Below, one piece after another: positions 579 to 6,490 of a DNA stretch of 7,462 bases. This DNA comes from a bacterium (GTDB lineage: Bacteria > SZUA-182 > DTGQ01). The DNA is taken from contig JAILZY010000133.1 in assembly GCA_023512255.1 (NCBI GenBank), positions 1-7,462 of the forward strand, read 5' to 3'. Made by a program: the position numbers and the translations under genes. Within the stretch, counting starts at the first letter, position 1. Each line of letters starts with the position of its first letter. The notes beneath the pieces are model-generated. The model did no database searches, was not told where the DNA came from, and worked only from the letters and a program-made list of their open reading frames with translations.

Positions 579-785
579 CTAATAGAAATATTTTCCGATA
601 ACCTCGTAATAATAAGTTACGGTTCTATCTCTAGCCTCTCTCTCCATCTGGTCAAGGGCAAGAGAGAGATCTTTGTCTAAGCTATCAATTTTATGAATGC
701 ATGTTTCCAGAAATTTGCGTAATATCTCTGACTTTATCGAACTTTCTTGAACCTTAAAAATTTTCTCTTCTTTTTTAATACTCAT
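579..785 (-). CDS. small charged helical protein, function unknown
   Basis: This 68-residue protein starts MSIKKEEKIFKVQESS and ends in an aromatic tail (TYYYEVIGKYFY). I chose the ATG at 785 because a purine-rich ribosome binding site, GAGGGAGAG, ends six bases upstream. A TTG two codons further upstream (791) would leave no room for that site. The protein is rich in Lys, Glu, Asp and Arg, has no membrane segment or signal peptide, and the middle (about residues 16-54) looks like one or two amphipathic helices. The single Cys is near residue 30. I do not recognise the family. It stands alone, divergent from the sigma-54 transcript at 1220, and has its own promoter candidate at 921-950. No convincing terminator follows; a 4-bp stem AGCC/GGCT near 553-566 is too weak. 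Confidence 0.6.
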   Translation of the reverse strand: MSIKKEEKIFKVQESSIKSEILRKFLETCIHKIDSLDKDLSLALDQMEREARDRTVTYYYEVIGKYFY

Positions 786-854
786 ACCCAACTCTCCCTC
801 GAACCTCTATTTTTCTCTGAAATTACTGTACTCTTATCATCCCCTCCCTTATAT

Positions 855-978: not shown

Positions 979-1000
979 CCCTCGACACTTTTGTCATCCA
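979..1000. promoter_or_regulatory. weak second upstream activator-site candidate
   Basis: The core TCGAC-N6-GTC repeats the core and spacing of the stronger dyad at 1082-1103, but the outer arms match poorly (about 9 of 16 arm positions overall). Its centre lies 103 bp upstream of the first dyad. Two activator dimers upstream of a sigma-54 promoter are common for NtrC-type proteins, which is the only reason to list it. Confidence 0.2.
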
Positions 1001-1081: not shown

Positions 1082-1103
1082 TTTTCGACGAAATTGTCGA
1101 AAA
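1082..1103. promoter_or_regulatory. dyad, likely enhancer site for an NtrC-family activator
   Basis: TTTTCGAC (1082-1089) and GTCGAAAA (1096-1103) are perfect 8-bp inverted arms around a 6-bp spacer. The centre is about 127 bp upstream of the predicted start of the sigma-54 promoter at 1194-1209, the usual distance for an NtrC-type upstream activating sequence. There is no U-tract after it, so it is not a terminator. The obvious candidate binder is the Fis-type HTH of the regulator at 3607-4980; that pairing is inference. Confidence 0.5.
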
Positions 1104-1193
1104 ATTTAGCTCATCACTGGATTGATTAAGAGAAGAATGATATATCGCCTTTATTTTTAATGAAATAGGTGGCATGAATCTCAATTTAAAAAA

Positions 1194-1209
1194 TGGCATG
1201 GAGATTGCT
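1194..1209 (+). promoter_or_regulatory. sigma-54 (RpoN) promoter
   Basis: TGGCAT (1194-1199), five bases, then TTGCT (1205-1209) matches the consensus TGGCAC-N5-TTGCW at all but one specified base. The invariant GG (1195-1196) and GC (1207-1208) have the required 10-bp spacing. The predicted start is a G at about 1220. Other GG-N10-GC hits in the window match the consensus far less well. No protein gene starts within a normal distance downstream, but an intrinsic terminator lies about 230 bp further on. Confidence 0.7.
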
Positions 1210-1219
1210 ACTCTATAAA

Positions 1220-1478
1220 GACAAAGAAAATAAGGGAGGTGATCAGGTTTAACGAAGTTAGCTAATGGGTTATATTTGCCAGCCGAATGGGCAAAGAAGA
1301 GAGAGTGGATTAAATGAGCTAGCTACTCGAAGGAGGTGGTGGAAGCGATGAAATAAAAGGGAAAGGAAAGCGATTTAGCCTTCCATTCCCTGAGCAAATT
1401 TAGTGGGGACCTATCCTCGAAGGGCATAAAAGAGATTTTGATACAGGAGGCGGGAGGCAAAATCCCGCCTTATTTTTT
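1220..1478 (+). ncRNA. candidate sigma-54-dependent small RNA, GGA-rich
   Basis: The ends are set by the sigma-54 promoter and by the terminator stem and U-tract. No reading frame fits. The longest, 28 codons at 1265-1351, starts 25 nt after the nearest ribosome-binding-like sequence. Visible RNA structure: AGTTAGCT (1256-1263) pairs with AGCTAGCT (1317-1324), with one G-U pair, and encloses the hairpin TTTGCC/GGCAAA (1275-1295). A long hairpin at 1359-1390 has stems GGGAA/TTCCC and GGAA/TTCC around an A-A mismatch. Then comes the terminator. Nine GGA triplets occur (1235, 1307, 1332, 1341, 1360, 1365, 1407, 1446, 1453), four in ANGGA context, and several fall in predicted single-stranded parts. 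CsrB/RsmZ-type RNAs show this pattern, but purine-rich sequence alone would give some. It lies just upstream of an NtrC-type two-component pair. It does not match any riboswitch or housekeeping RNA I know. Confidence 0.55.
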
Positions 1479-1485
1479 CTTTTTT
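1448..1485 (+). terminator. strong Rho-independent terminator
   Basis: AGGCGGGA (1448-1455) pairs perfectly with TCCCGCCT (1463-1470) around a 7-nt loop (GGCAAAA). TATTTTTTCTTTTTT (1471-1485) follows directly. The stem is GC-rich and the tract is long, so it should work efficiently on the plus strand. It ends the sigma-54 transcript and insulates the kinase operon downstream. Confidence 0.87.
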
Positions 1486-1521: not shown

Positions 1522-1551
1522 TTGAGCAGAAAAGGGTGAGGATATTATAAT
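1522..1551 (+). promoter_or_regulatory. sigma-70-like promoter for the kinase-regulator operon
   Basis: TTGAGC (1522-1527, four of six matches to TTGACA) is followed after 18 bp by a perfect TATAAT (1546-1551). The -10 sits inside the AT palindrome TATTATAATA. Predicted start is near 1558, leaving a leader of about 300 nt before the kinase ATG at 1859. Confidence 0.5.
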
Positions 1552-1858: not shown

Positions 1859-3610
1859 ATGAGAGCTTTTTGGGGAAAATCAGCTATGGGAGAAGAGCGA
1901 GAGACGAATCTTTCGTGGACCTATACCATCGTCAGCATTTTTCTGCTGATCATTGTCGTCAGCTTTCACAGCCTTTGGCAAATACAAAAAGGAAAGCAGA
2001 TCATATACAAGACCTTGCGTGAGCAGGGAGAAGCCTTAGCGGAAAGCCTTCAGGCCAGTGGAAAGAATGCTATTATCTCCAATAAGCTGGCCCAGGAGAT
2101 CCTGGTTAATCGTCTTTTGGACAATGCCCGGCTGATTGATATGTTAATTCGGATTTATGGGTATAATAACGTGCTCCTCAATGAGATAGCGACCCAGAAC
2201 GGTTTATTCCGCGTCCAGGTGATTGATCAGTGTGGCCGACTAGTGCTTGATTCTTTGGCTCCACCTTTTCCTTCGATTCTGAACTGGGTGCCTGATTATC
2301 GGCATCGGGCGATCTTCCTGAAGGTGATTGCTCCCATCCTGAGGGGCGAGAAACGATTTATTTTGGAAGGTGTTCATCAGGATCACCCGATCATGGAAAA
2401 TCTCTTTTGGGTAGCTATGGCCAGAGCGAACAACGAGGGAGCCATTATTGTCCATGTAGATGCCAGGTACATGGAACAATTTCGTCAGGAGATAGGGCTT
2501 GGGAAATTGATCAGCGATATTGCCGAGCAGGAGGGGATCAGCTATATTGCCTTTCATGACCAGCAGGGGGCCATCGTTGCTCCACGACACATCTGTTTGC
2601 CAGCGCTTCACAGCTTCCCCAGCCAATACACGAATATTCAAAGCGGGTTTCGTCGTTTTCAGTCGGGGAAGGAAGCTTTTGAAATTGTCAAGCCTTTCAT
2701 TTTTCAAGGGAAAGTGATAGGGGTATTCCGAATAGGCCTTTCTTTGGATAAAATTACCAGAACCATTCAGCAGTCGCAGAAAAATTCACTCTGGTTTAGT
2801 CTGCTGATCATTGCCTTGGGCAGCGGTGGGCTAATAACTATTTTTTACCATCAGTATGTCCAGTATAAACGACATAAGATCTTGGCCGAGAGTTTGCAGC
2901 GCACCGAGCGTCTGACCTCTATCGGGAAACTGGCGGCTGGCGTAGCTCATGAGATCAGAAACCCACTGAATGCTATTAGCATGGCCATTCAGCGGCTTCA
3001 GCAGGAGTATCTGCCGGAAAAAGAGGAAAATCAGCAGGAATTTATCAACTTTACCGAGATTATAAGAAACGAAGTCAAGCGGGTGGATAAGATCATCAGC
3101 AATTTTCTCACCTTTGCCCGGGAGCCTAAACTTGAGTTAGAGGAAGTGAACATTTCCTGCCTGATCGACGATCTTATCTTTATTTTGGCCCCTGAGGCGG
3201 AAAACCATCAGGTGAAAATCAAGGCCGAATATCAGCAGGGAGAGGCCTTGTTGCGATGTCGCTGTGATCCAAACCAGATTAAGCAGGCCCTGATTAATAT
3301 CATCCGCAATGCCGAGCAGGCCATGCCCGAGGGTGGAGTAATCACGATCAGGGTCAGTCAGGTCCAGGAGCGGATCTTGATCTGCGTGGCTGACACGGGT
3401 GTAGGTATTGCAGACACAAGCAAAATCTTTGAAATTTACTATACGAGTAAAGATGGAGGGGTAGGGCTTGGGCTACCCATTTCTCAAAAGATTATCGAGG
3501 AGCACGGCGGAAAGATTGAAGTTGAGTCCTCGGTGGGGAAGGGTTCAGAGTTTCGGATCTGGCTGCCTATTAAACCGTTGATGCCGCATGTGGAGATGAA
3601 GCCGCTATGA
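1859..3610 (+). CDS. membrane sensor histidine kinase, NtrB/ZraS-like class
   Basis: A 583-residue inner-membrane kinase. A first membrane helix (about 20-40) and a second (about 310-332) enclose a periplasmic region of roughly 270 residues. That region holds two related Cache/PAS-like modules: each has an IAxQxG stretch followed by a DQxG turn (109-128 and 221-237), and each ends near a 'VxxD/SLDK' type strand (198-201, 292-298). There is no HAMP domain; a short linker leads to the dimerisation helix with phosphoacceptor His364 in GKLAAGVAHEIRNP. The ATPase domain shows the N box (IIRNAEQA, Asn484), G1 (DTGVGIA, Asp512), the F-box region (IFEIYYTSK) and G2 (GVGLGLP, 534-540), so it looks catalytically intact. 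ATG 1859 has only a weak GGGG site; Met10 (1886) is an alternative start. The stop overlaps the regulator's start by 4 nt, a translationally coupled pair. The ligand is unknown. Confidence 0.92.
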   Translation: MRAFWGKSAMGEERETNLSWTYTIVSIFLLIIVVSFHSLWQIQKGKQIIYKTLREQGEALAESLQASGKNAIISNKLAQEILVNRLLDNARLIDMLIRIYGYNNVLLNEIATQNGLFRVQVIDQCGRLVLDSLAPPFPSILNWVPDYRHRAIFLKVIAPILRGEKRFILEGVHQDHPIMENLFWVAMARANNEGAIIVHVDARYMEQFRQEIGLGKLISDIAEQEGISYIAFHDQQGAIVAPRHICLPALHSFPSQYTNIQSGFRRFQSGKEAFEIVKPFIFQGKVIGVFRIGLSLDKITRTIQQSQKNSLWFSLLIIALGSGGLITIFYHQYVQYKRHKILAESLQRTERLTSIGKLAAGVAHEIRNPLNAISMAIQRLQQEYLPEKEENQQEFINFTEIIRNEVKRVDKIISNFLTFAREPKLELEEVNISCLIDDLIFILAPEAENHQVKIKAEYQQGEALLRCRCDPNQIKQALINIIRNAEQAMPEGGVITIRVSQVQERILICVADTGVGIADTSKIFEIYYTSKDGGVGLGLPISQKIIEEHGGKIEVESSVGKGSEFRIWLPIKPLMPHVEMKPL

Positions 3611-4980
3611 TTAATATTCTGATTGTCGACGATGAAAAGAATCAGCGAGATGTGCTGATGGGTTTTCTAGTGAAAAAGGGCTACCATGCTCTGGCCTGTG
3701 GCAGTGGCAAAGAGGCGCTGAGCCTGGTCAGGGGAGAGCGAATAGATATGATCCTAACCGACTATCAAATGCCAGAGATGACCGGCCAGGAGCTTTTGGA
3801 GGAGGTTAAACGAATCAACCCTTCGATCCTGGTAATAATTTTTACCGCTTATGGCACTATTGACCGGGCAGTAGCCGCCATGAAAGCCGGAGCTTATGAT
3901 TATCTTACCAAACCAATTGACCTGAATGAGCTTTTGATCATTATTCAAAAGGGAGTGGAATATCTGCATCTAATTGAGGAAAACCGTGAACTGCGGGAGA
4001 TGCTCTCCCAGCGCTACTCCTTTGACAATATCATCAGCGTAAGCGACAAAATGGAGGAAATCCTGAACCTAGTCAGCCGGGTGGCCAAGACCGACATTAC
4101 GGTCCTGATCCGTGGAGAGAGCGGAACGGGCAAAGAGCTCATTGCCCATGCCATTCATTTTAATAGCTCCAGGGCAGAGCGGCCCTTTATTAAGGTTAAT
4201 TGTGCGGCTTTGCCTGAAAATCTTCTGGAAAGTGAGCTGTTCGGCCATGAAAAGGGATCATTCACTGGTGCCATTCAGCGCCGGATTGGCCGTTTTGAAG
4301 AAGCCGACTCAGGATCTATATTCCTAGATGAGATCGGTGATCTCTCCCATCCTCTCCAAGTCAAACTTCTGAGGGTACTTCAGGAGAGGGAGATACAAAG
4401 AGTTGGCGCCAACGCCAGTCTTAGGGTAGATGTGCGCGTTATCGCCGCCACGAACAAGGATTTGGAAAAGGGGATGATGGAGGGACATTTTCGTGAGGAC
4501 CTCTACTACCGGCTCAATGTAGTGCCAATCTTTCTGCCCCCTTTAAGAGAGCGTAGAGAGGATATCCCAAGGCTGATCGAGTTTTTTTTGCAAAGGCATA
4601 GCGAAAAATGCAAAAAAAAGGTCAAAGGAGTAACCAAAGAGGTCCTTGACGCGCTGCTCAAGTACCATTATCCGGGCAATGTTAGAGAGCTGGAAAACAT
4701 TATCGAGCGGGCCACAGTCCTGACCAGGTATGAATATATCACTCTGGCTGATCTTCCTCCTAATATTTACGCCCACCAGTCCCATATGTCCGAAGCAGAC
4801 CTTTTGCCCACAACCGCCCATTCGCTTGACGATGCGGTCTCTGCGCTCGAAAAAAAATTAATCACCAAGGCACTGGCCCTTCATGATGGGGTTCAGACCA
4901 AGGCGGCCGAATCCCTGGGTATAAGTGAGCGGGTTTTACGCTACAAGATGAAAAAGTACGGTCTTAGTCTTAGCCATTAG
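3607..4980 (+). CDS. sigma-54-dependent NtrC-family response regulator
   Basis: A 457-residue cytoplasmic transcription activator and partner of the upstream kinase. The receiver domain (1-120) has the acidic pair Asp8/Asp9, phosphoacceptor Asp52 (LTDYQMP), Thr80 and Lys102. The AAA+ domain (about 143-375) has Walker A GESGTGKE (170-177), the sigma-54 contact loop as GSFTGA (217-222), Walker B SIFLDE (237-242), the RxDLYYRL region (296-303) and YPGNVRELEN (355-364). The C-terminal Fis-type HTH (about 417-453) contains TKAAESLGISERVLRYKMKK. Length and domain order are typical of NtrC/ZraR/AtoC proteins. The Ser in GSFTGA replaces the usual Ala and is conservative, so sigma-54 contact should hold. 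The ATGA overlap and a nearby TGGAG support coupled translation. The sigma-54 promoter at 1194 with its dyad is the most likely local target (inference). No canonical terminator is visible between this gene and the convergent one at 5042. Confidence 0.95.
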   Translation: MINILIVDDEKNQRDVLMGFLVKKGYHALACGSGKEALSLVRGERIDMILTDYQMPEMTGQELLEEVKRINPSILVIIFTAYGTIDRAVAAMKAGAYDYLTKPIDLNELLIIIQKGVEYLHLIEENRELREMLSQRYSFDNIISVSDKMEEILNLVSRVAKTDITVLIRGESGTGKELIAHAIHFNSSRAERPFIKVNCAALPENLLESELFGHEKGSFTGAIQRRIGRFEEADSGSIFLDEIGDLSHPLQVKLLRVLQEREIQRVGANASLRVDVRVIAATNKDLEKGMMEGHFREDLYYRLNVVPIFLPPLRERREDIPRLIEFFLQRHSEKCKKKVKGVTKEVLDALLKYHYPGNVRELENIIERATVLTRYEYITLADLPPNIYAHQSHMSEADLLPTTAHSLDDAVSALEKKLITKALALHDGVQTKAAESLGISERVLRYKMKKYGLSLSH

Positions 4981-5041: not shown

Positions 5042-6490
5042 CTAGGAGGAAGATTTGCGCTCATCCTGCTGATCATACCGTACCGTCTCAATGGCTTTCT
5101 GCCTGAGAATATCATAATAGATCATGATCTTTCGGACATATCGCACCGGCCTTGTCCCGCGGCAGTAGCCGTATTTGCTTTGTCTATAGTAGCGGGGCTC
5201 GGCCAGCAAGGGAAGAGTTTTTTTGAGGGAAGACCATTGCCAGGGGTCAAGGTTAAGCCGCCGGGCAAGCACCTGGGCATCTCGGATATGCTTGGGCCCA
5301 ACATTATAGGCAGCCAGGCTGATAAGTAGACGATCCGGTTCTGGAGCCTGTTGATAAAGGTCATAGAGATAGCGAAGGTATTTGACTCCGGCCTTGATGT
5401 TCTGCTGTGGATCGAGGCGATCCTCAATGCCCATCTCCTTAGCCGTAGCTGAGGTGAGCTGCATAAGCCCTCGGTCATTATTCGGATCTAGGCTCTCAGG
5501 ATCAAAGTGTGATTCCTGATAGACCATAGCGGCGATCAATCGCCAGTCAAACCCATATCTTTGGGCTATTTCCTTGATGGTGGCTTTATGTTTGGGTAGC
5601 CGAGTTTTGAGCCTCTGATGATATTTTTTTATATCCTGGTAATCAAAAACCTCAAGATCTGAGTAATATCGAGCATAGATATCATAGAAAAGGCCATTTG
5701 CCCGAATGGTTTCAAAAAAACGGTTGATTTCTTCCACAAGCTCTCTCTCTCCCTTGGCCACGGCCCAGCTTAGAGATTGGGCCTTTTCGATTGGGAATCC
5801 GATTCGGATATCTGGATAGTAGCGCCGGCAAAGAAGAGCAATGGTAGAGTCAGCTATAGTGATGTCGATCTTCTTTTGAGCTACCTTACCGATAAGCTCT
5901 TCAACCGTAGCCTCATCGTGGACTTCGATGGTGCAGCGTATCCCAGCCTGCCAGAGTCGGTCAAGGCATTCTTCCGATAGGCTCCCCTTGCAGATATGAA
6001 TGGTTTTCCCGTCTAGGTCATTGATGGTTCGAATAGTATGGTTATTTTTGTGAACAATGATATGGCGCTGAACGGTTAAATAACCATCTGAAAAATCAAC
6101 TACTTTCTGACGAGAGGGAGAAGGAGTCAGTTTAGCGGCCAAAAAATGGGTCCGGCCAAGGCATCTAACCATTTCCTCCCAATTGCTGACAATCTGCACT
6201 CGCAGCTCCACGCCCAGAAATTGAGCAAAGGCCTTAGCCAGCTCATATTCGAAGCCTGAAGGCCTACCCCGGTACTTATAATAACAGTGGTTATTGCTTT
6301 GAGTAACTAGGGTTATGACTCCGGTTCTTTTGATCCTGCTCAGAGCACTTTCCTGCTTAGCTTGCTGAGCTGCTGGCGGCACAGGACGACATGAGGTTAC
6401 AACGAGAAGATAGAGAAAGAGAATTACGCTAATCTCCTTCAGCGGCCCTGGGCAAATTCTTCTCAAGAGTTTGGTTTCGCTCATAAGCAT
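5042..6490 (-). CDS. mltF: membrane-bound lytic transglycosylase, MltF type
   Basis: A 482-residue predicted outer-membrane lipoprotein that cleaves peptidoglycan glycan strands, releasing 1,6-anhydromuramyl products. A signal peptide ends in the lipobox VTSC (Cys34); the next residue is Arg rather than Asp, which favours the outer membrane. Residues about 52-277 form a family-3 solute-binding-like domain (GFEYELAKAFAQFLG, SRQKVVDFSDGY). Residues about 302-435 form the SLT catalytic domain, with catalytic Glu326 in VYQESHFDP, GLMQLT (341-346) and AAYNVGP (393-399). The C-terminal RYYRQSKYGYCRG and YVRKIMIYYD stretches match the MltF ending. Length is a little under E. coli MltF (about 518). 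ATG 6490 has AAGAG five bases upstream; the ATG at 6484 is a possible alternative. Eight cysteines are unusually many for a periplasmic protein. The gene converges on the regulator, separated by 61 bp. Confidence 0.88.
   Translation of the reverse strand: MLMSETKLLRRICPGPLKEISVILFLYLLVVTSCRPVPPAAQQAKQESALSRIKRTGVITLVTQSNNHCYYKYRGRPSGFEYELAKAFAQFLGVELRVQIVSNWEEMVRCLGRTHFLAAKLTPSPSRQKVVDFSDGYLTVQRHIIVHKNNHTIRTINDLDGKTIHICKGSLSEECLDRLWQAGIRCTIEVHDEATVEELIGKVAQKKIDITIADSTIALLCRRYYPDIRIGFPIEKAQSLSWAVAKGERELVEEINRFFETIRANGLFYDIYARYYSDLEVFDYQDIKKYHQRLKTRLPKHKATIKEIAQRYGFDWRLIAAMVYQESHFDPESLDPNNDRGLMQLTSATAKEMGIEDRLDPQQNIKAGVKYLRYLYDLYQQAPEPDRLLISLAAYNVGPKHIRDAQVLARRLNLDPWQWSSLKKTLPLLAEPRYYRQSKYGYCRGTRPVRYVRKIMIYYDILRQKAIETVRYDQQDERKSSS

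Follow-up and report, generated by a model that had tools for sequence, protein, structure and literature searches.

A putative sigma-54-dependent small RNA gene upstream of an NtrC-type two-component system, with a conserved pair of Shine-Dalgarno-like motifs

In the Pseudomonadaceae, the NtrC-type regulator of the CbrAB two-component system activates sigma-54-dependent small RNA genes (CrcZ/CrcY) adjoining the kinase and regulator genes (PMC8871633). A comparable arrangement is found in Enterobacteria, where the NtrC-type regulator of QseEF (GlrKR) binds upstream activating sequences at the sigma-54-dependent gene for the small RNA GlmY (PMC6075780); GlmY serves as a decoy for RapZ in the control of glmS (PMC7073468). 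The locus that is the subject of this paper has, as predicted from its sequence, the same wiring as CbrAB–CrcZ, with an RNA gene adjacent to a kinase–regulator pair, and it shares with QseEF–GlmY the two-component, NtrC-type control of a sigma-54 small RNA gene. It differs from the former in that CrcZ lies downstream of cbrB, whereas the present RNA is upstream of the kinase, and in that CrcZ binds Crc/Hfq, whereas Hfq was not found here; in addition, the present RNA has a pair of GGAGGTGAT motifs. The difference from GlmY is that the present RNA matches no Rfam family (covariance-model searches gave no match at the gathering score, nor did 800-1858 yield one at E<=1). LuxO–Qrr of Vibrio is a further case of sigma-54/NtrC-type control of regulatory RNAs; Qrr genes occur in several copies and their RNAs depend on Hfq, in contrast to the single copy per genome seen here and the failure to find Hfq. 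Two-component output RNAs with repeated GGA-containing motifs are also known from GacA–RsmY/Z and UvrY–CsrB/C. GacA and UvrY are not of the NtrC type; in the present case, moreover, CsrA was not found, and it is a longer motif, GGAGGTGAT, that is conserved. The analogy with CrcZ, GlmY/GlmZ and Qrr drawn in the initial annotation of this DNA can be kept for the wiring but not, given that Hfq and CsrA were not found, for the mode of action.

The window, by which we mean the whole stretch of DNA analysed (7,462 nucleotides), is one complete contig of a draft genome of 3.83 Mb in 172 contigs. It was compared within a set of nine genomes of the phylum, four of which represent the family of the source genome and are 91-97% complete: the source itself (G000), a member of the same genus (G001) and representatives of two further genera (G002 and G003). 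The features are summarized in Table 1. Orthologues of the kinase and the regulator are found downstream of the RNA locus in each of the four; kinase identity is 82% in G001, 64% in G002 and 55-65% in G003, where the gene is in two pieces split between contigs, and the regulators are 72-86% identical across the family. The presence of rpoN may be deduced from the many sigma-54 activator genes in the genome. The divergently encoded 70-residue protein is present in G000, G001 and G003 and was not found in G002; the promoter or control region of its gene may use the dyad region in common with the RNA gene. On the other side, an MltF-type lytic transglycosylase (5042-6490, minus strand, above the NCBIfam cut-off) is convergent with the regulator gene; this neighbourhood is not conserved in either G001 or G002.

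Table 1. Features of the window around the predicted small RNA gene (dyad functions and the RNA itself are predictions)
Feature	Position	Strand	Remarks
Conserved 70-residue protein, divergent from the RNA gene	579..791	-	No Pfam or NCBIfam family
Distal dyad, CGACACTTTTGTCA	983..996		Weaker than the proximal dyad; putative tandem activator-binding sites
Proximal dyad, TTTTCGACGAAATTGTCGAAAA	1082..1103		Core 1086-1099, which follows the distal core by 103 bp
Sigma-54 (-24/-12) promoter, TGGCATGgagaTTGCT	1194..1209	+	11/12 consensus bases
Predicted small RNA, about 260 nt	1220..1479	+	Deduced from promoter and terminator
Shine-Dalgarno-like motif 1, GGAGGTGATC	1235..1244	+	Complementarity of 10 nt with the 16S 3' tail
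Shine-Dalgarno-like motif 2, GGAGGTGGT	1332..1340	+	AA directly before
Two-codon frame ATG AAA TAA after motif 2	1348..1356	+	ATG TGA in G001; absent from G002 and G003
Possible hairpin, GGGAAAGGAAAG...CTTCCATTCCC	1359..1390	+	Single-sequence folds, two sequences only
32-nt block	1413..1444	+	No differences between G000 and G001; lacking in G002 and G003
Intrinsic terminator	1447..1479	+	9-bp GC-rich stem 1447-1471, then T run ATTTTTTC
Sigma-70-type promoter of the kinase operon, TTGAGC-18-TATAAT	1522..1551	+	3' of the terminator
Membrane sensor histidine kinase	1859..3610	+	Weak sCache match, HisKA, HATPase_c
NtrC-type response regulator	3607..4980	+	Receiver, sigma-54 activation domain, Fis-type HTH

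The initial annotation had pointed to a dyad, a sigma-54 promoter with a single mismatch, some 260 nt lacking a credible gene and a strong terminator, and these elements are all borne out. A sigma-54 site as good as that observed would arise by chance with a probability of 0.002 (1279-nt region, both strands), and it sets the predicted transcription start at about 1220. Sites at the matching position are present in G001, G002 and G003, with 10-11 of the 12 consensus bases across the four genomes. The terminator, whose 9-bp stem is followed by a T run, has a GGCGGG-type stem common to the whole family, so that transcripts of 260, 234, 222 and 261 nt are predicted for G000, G001, G002 and G003, respectively. 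The homology between G000 and G001 in the spacer forms a block from 580 to 1478, ending at the terminator. Within 1220-1479 the longest sense open reading frame has 28 codons for amino acids and is not conserved. The initial annotation held that a protein frame conserved across relatives would mark the interval as coding; comparison of the four transcripts reveals no such frame. A frame on the antisense strand of the 3' part was considered and rejected: judged by eye, the short stretch that it has in common with G001 merely reflects identity of the DNA at that point, and the likeness then breaks off.

Upstream of the promoter, the proximal dyad has the form TTTTCGAC-GAAATT-GTCGAAAA, with perfect arms of 8 bp and symmetry at 9 of 11 positions overall. 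By single-sequence statistics it is not significant, as 28% of stretches of 1279 nt contain one like it under a Markov null; its significance comes from its conservation. The initial annotation overlooked both a second dyad, at 983-996, and the pair of Shine-Dalgarno-like motifs described below; its bounds of 1082-1485 hold for the parts as placed, but the upstream limit should move to about 979. In both G001 and G002 the distal dyad has the perfect form CGACATTTTTGTCG, while G003 has GACATTTTTGTCGA. Two CGACAnnnnTGTCG-type dyads, about 102-103 bp apart, precede the kinase in each of the four family genomes, co-occurring with the regulator gene in all of them. Positions counted from the promoter's first base are, for G000 to G003, -211, -208, -192 and -191 in the case of the distal dyad and -108, about -105, -90 and about -88 in that of the proximal dyad. 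In all four the promoter is 88-108 bp past the second dyad; the order of tandem dyads, sigma-54 site, transcript and terminator is likewise kept throughout.

A search of all nine phylum genomes for the tandem-dyad pattern gave only five places, namely the four family loci and one operon locus in G002, and the reversed pattern used as a control gave zero matches. The other five phylum genomes, searched for the module outside the family, contain no tandem dyads, and scans of further genome contigs and of viral contigs gave no new module loci beyond those of G002 and G003. In G039, which has a distant relative of the kinase (36%), no such dyads were seen upstream on reading the sequence, and a sigma-54-like site with 10 of 12 bases is the only such element before the kinase gene. 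Comparison of the sequences thus establishes the parts, their spacing and their restriction to genomes with the kinase–regulator pair. From this linkage and co-occurrence we infer that it is the neighbouring regulator, and not another, that contacts the dyads. A CTTTATTTWTAATG-like stretch at about 1150-1165, past the proximal dyad and ahead of the sigma-54 site, recurs by eye at this place in the relatives and is perhaps a bending or IHF-like site.

The fifth place (contig C227 of G002; L057:3770-7879) has a sigma-54 site 90 bp past the second dyad, and precedes a gene for a cysteine-rich protein of 198 residues, belonging to no known family, which is followed by gspE/pilB- and pilC-type genes. 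This locus is likely to be another target of the same regulator. In the genus of G002, a pilus or secretion operon may thus also be under its control, given the dyads and the sigma-54 site before the genes. The G003 orthologue of the gene behind this second dyad pair is without dyads. A separate observation concerns another conserved sigma-54 promoter (L058:3580-3642 and L059:220-288, both on the minus strand, with 12/12 and 11/12 consensus bases). It is preceded by dyads resembling TTGCAA-TTTTGCAA and followed by AGGAGGTGAT, which stands before a frame of 24 codons (the frame is MGIFLGAFGTLLYFLVSSRKGIK in G000); the locus is possibly a second sigma-54 small gene.

As the sigma-54 promoter, the terminator and the kinase lie in this order on the same strand, the transcript could alternatively be a leader with an attenuator, through which the kinase operon is autoregulated and from which no free RNA arises. 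Several observations make this very unlikely. A promoter of the form TTGAG[AC]-17/18-TATAAT is present after the terminator and before the kinase in all four genomes; this conserved sigma-70-type promoter, proper to the kinase operon, implies that the RNA forms a unit of its own. In G000 and G001, conservation is lacking from the terminator to the kinase, and there is no sign of an alternative fold that could act as an antiterminator. The kinase operon, which had been placed right after the RNA, is indeed downstream, but the kinase gene starts 380 nt past the terminator, behind its own promoter and an insert. The latter (1597-1740) is MITE-like, with 31-bp imperfect terminal inverted repeats (AACCAGGTCGCTCTTAT...) that are 84% complementary and flank 82 nt, and is absent from the relatives, as judged by reading their upstream sequences. 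The conserved parts, the homology that ends at the terminator and the separate promoter therefore argue for a free-standing, regulator-driven RNA gene rather than an attenuated leader. The proposal of a sigma-54 small RNA under an NtrC-type regulator is supported by its occurrence in the four family genomes, the fixed spacing, the want of a conserved frame and the separate kinase promoter; the interval is very probably the gene of such an RNA.

Every one of the four predicted transcripts contains two GG[AG]GGTG motifs (GGAGGTG(AT)), the first of which is invariably GGAGGTGAT, and, besides the terminator, this pair is the element clearly common to the RNAs of all three genera. The 3' end of the 16S gene, read in G001, is GGATCACCTCCTTT, and motif 1 therefore complements the tail perfectly over at least 9 nt; in G001 itself the complementarity extends to 12 nt (AAGGAGGTGATC). 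For each transcript, two motifs occurred in at most 1 in 1000 dinucleotide shuffles, and the duplexes formed with the 16S tail have energies of -17.7 to -21.5 kcal/mol, whereas the shuffles average about -6 to -11. The 60.7 kb of family DNA contain 13 such motifs, of which eight are in these RNAs. The predicted accessibility of the motifs is no more than moderate, with a mean pairing probability of 0.5-0.75. The possible hairpin that follows motif 2 is also seen in G001, with altered sequence. Covariation of the structure is weak because there are only four sequences, from one family; in the two-sequence alignment, three of 49 predicted pairs are changed on both sides. In the open-access literature, which was covered in part, no obvious case was found of a natural RNA in which Shine-Dalgarno motifs are paired and start-less.

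The motifs are strong ribosome-binding sequences, and the RNA might be supposed to be a small mRNA in which each of them opens a tiny frame, giving a micropeptide or a start-stop element. In keeping with this, ATG AAA TAA and ATG TGA follow motif 2 after 11 nt in G000 and 8 nt in G001, respectively, and the same genomes have a comparable sigma-54 promoter with AGGAGGTGAT ahead of a real frame of 24 codons. However, six of the eight motifs, including motif 1 of G000, are without an ATG, GTG or TTG 4-15 nt downstream, the frames are unlike one another and no open reading frame is conserved, and we regard a small mRNA as unlikely.

A GGA-rich output RNA also brings to mind the sponge RNAs of the CsrB/RsmZ kind, the GGA motifs of which titrate CsrA; these are two-component outputs, and CsrB of E. 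coli contains 22 GGA sequences (PMC7652899). Six-frame family searches for CsrA (PF02599) and Hfq (PF17209) detected neither in the four family genomes, at their stated completeness, while control genomes were positive, and the conserved unit here reaches well past GGA. The RNA therefore cannot work like RsmZ/CsrB or like CrcZ/Qrr; Hfq-dependent pairing was rejected together with the CsrA sponge, which is extremely improbable.

Hfq-independent small RNAs are used by many bacteria, and the present RNA might pair with particular mRNAs through other segments, such as 1413-1444, the GGAGGTG motifs being secondary. That block shows no difference between G000 and G001, against a mean column identity of 83% over the transcript alignment, and is a candidate genus-specific functional segment. 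It is missing from G002 and G003, whereas both motifs persist in all four genomes, and we consider pairing through such segments possible but doubtful. Action through the motifs is the likeliest mode, since only these two persist across three genera. The modes that remain may then be action of the paired motifs on the 16S tail, on CCUCC-containing RNAs or by way of a protein, or else Hfq-independent antisense pairing elsewhere. On balance, the RNA probably works through its paired motifs; that their partner is the 3' tail of the 30S subunit is suggested only tentatively. Equally tentative is the wider proposal of a signal-controlled RNA acting on the ribosome itself: its two start-less motifs would occupy the 16S tail in 30S subunits, or soak up CCUCC-containing RNAs, such that a two-component system would tune translation broadly in bacteria with neither Hfq nor CsrA detected.

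The locus as a whole is quite probably the gene of a non-coding RNA of about 260 nt that is turned on by the neighbouring NtrC-type regulator and is independent of Hfq and CsrA; its action is more likely than not motif-based. Transcription itself, the contact of regulator and dyads, and the mode of action are what we infer in the following scheme. The membrane kinase would detect a signal and phosphorylate the regulator, which would then occupy the two dyads about 102 bp apart and activate sigma-54 polymerase at 1194-1209. Transcription of the RNA would end at 1447-1479, and the kinase–regulator operon would be transcribed separately, from its sigma-70-type promoter. The RNA might then act by pairing of its motifs, either to the 3' tail of the ribosome or to RNAs that contain CCUCC.

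If this reading is correct, the locus adds a full module of sensor, regulator and RNA in a sparsely sampled phylum, within a family that has no detectable Hfq or CsrA. The doubled and mostly start-less Shine-Dalgarno motif leads to a specific and testable hypothesis, namely that the RNA may compete for the tail on which the ribosome docks mRNA.
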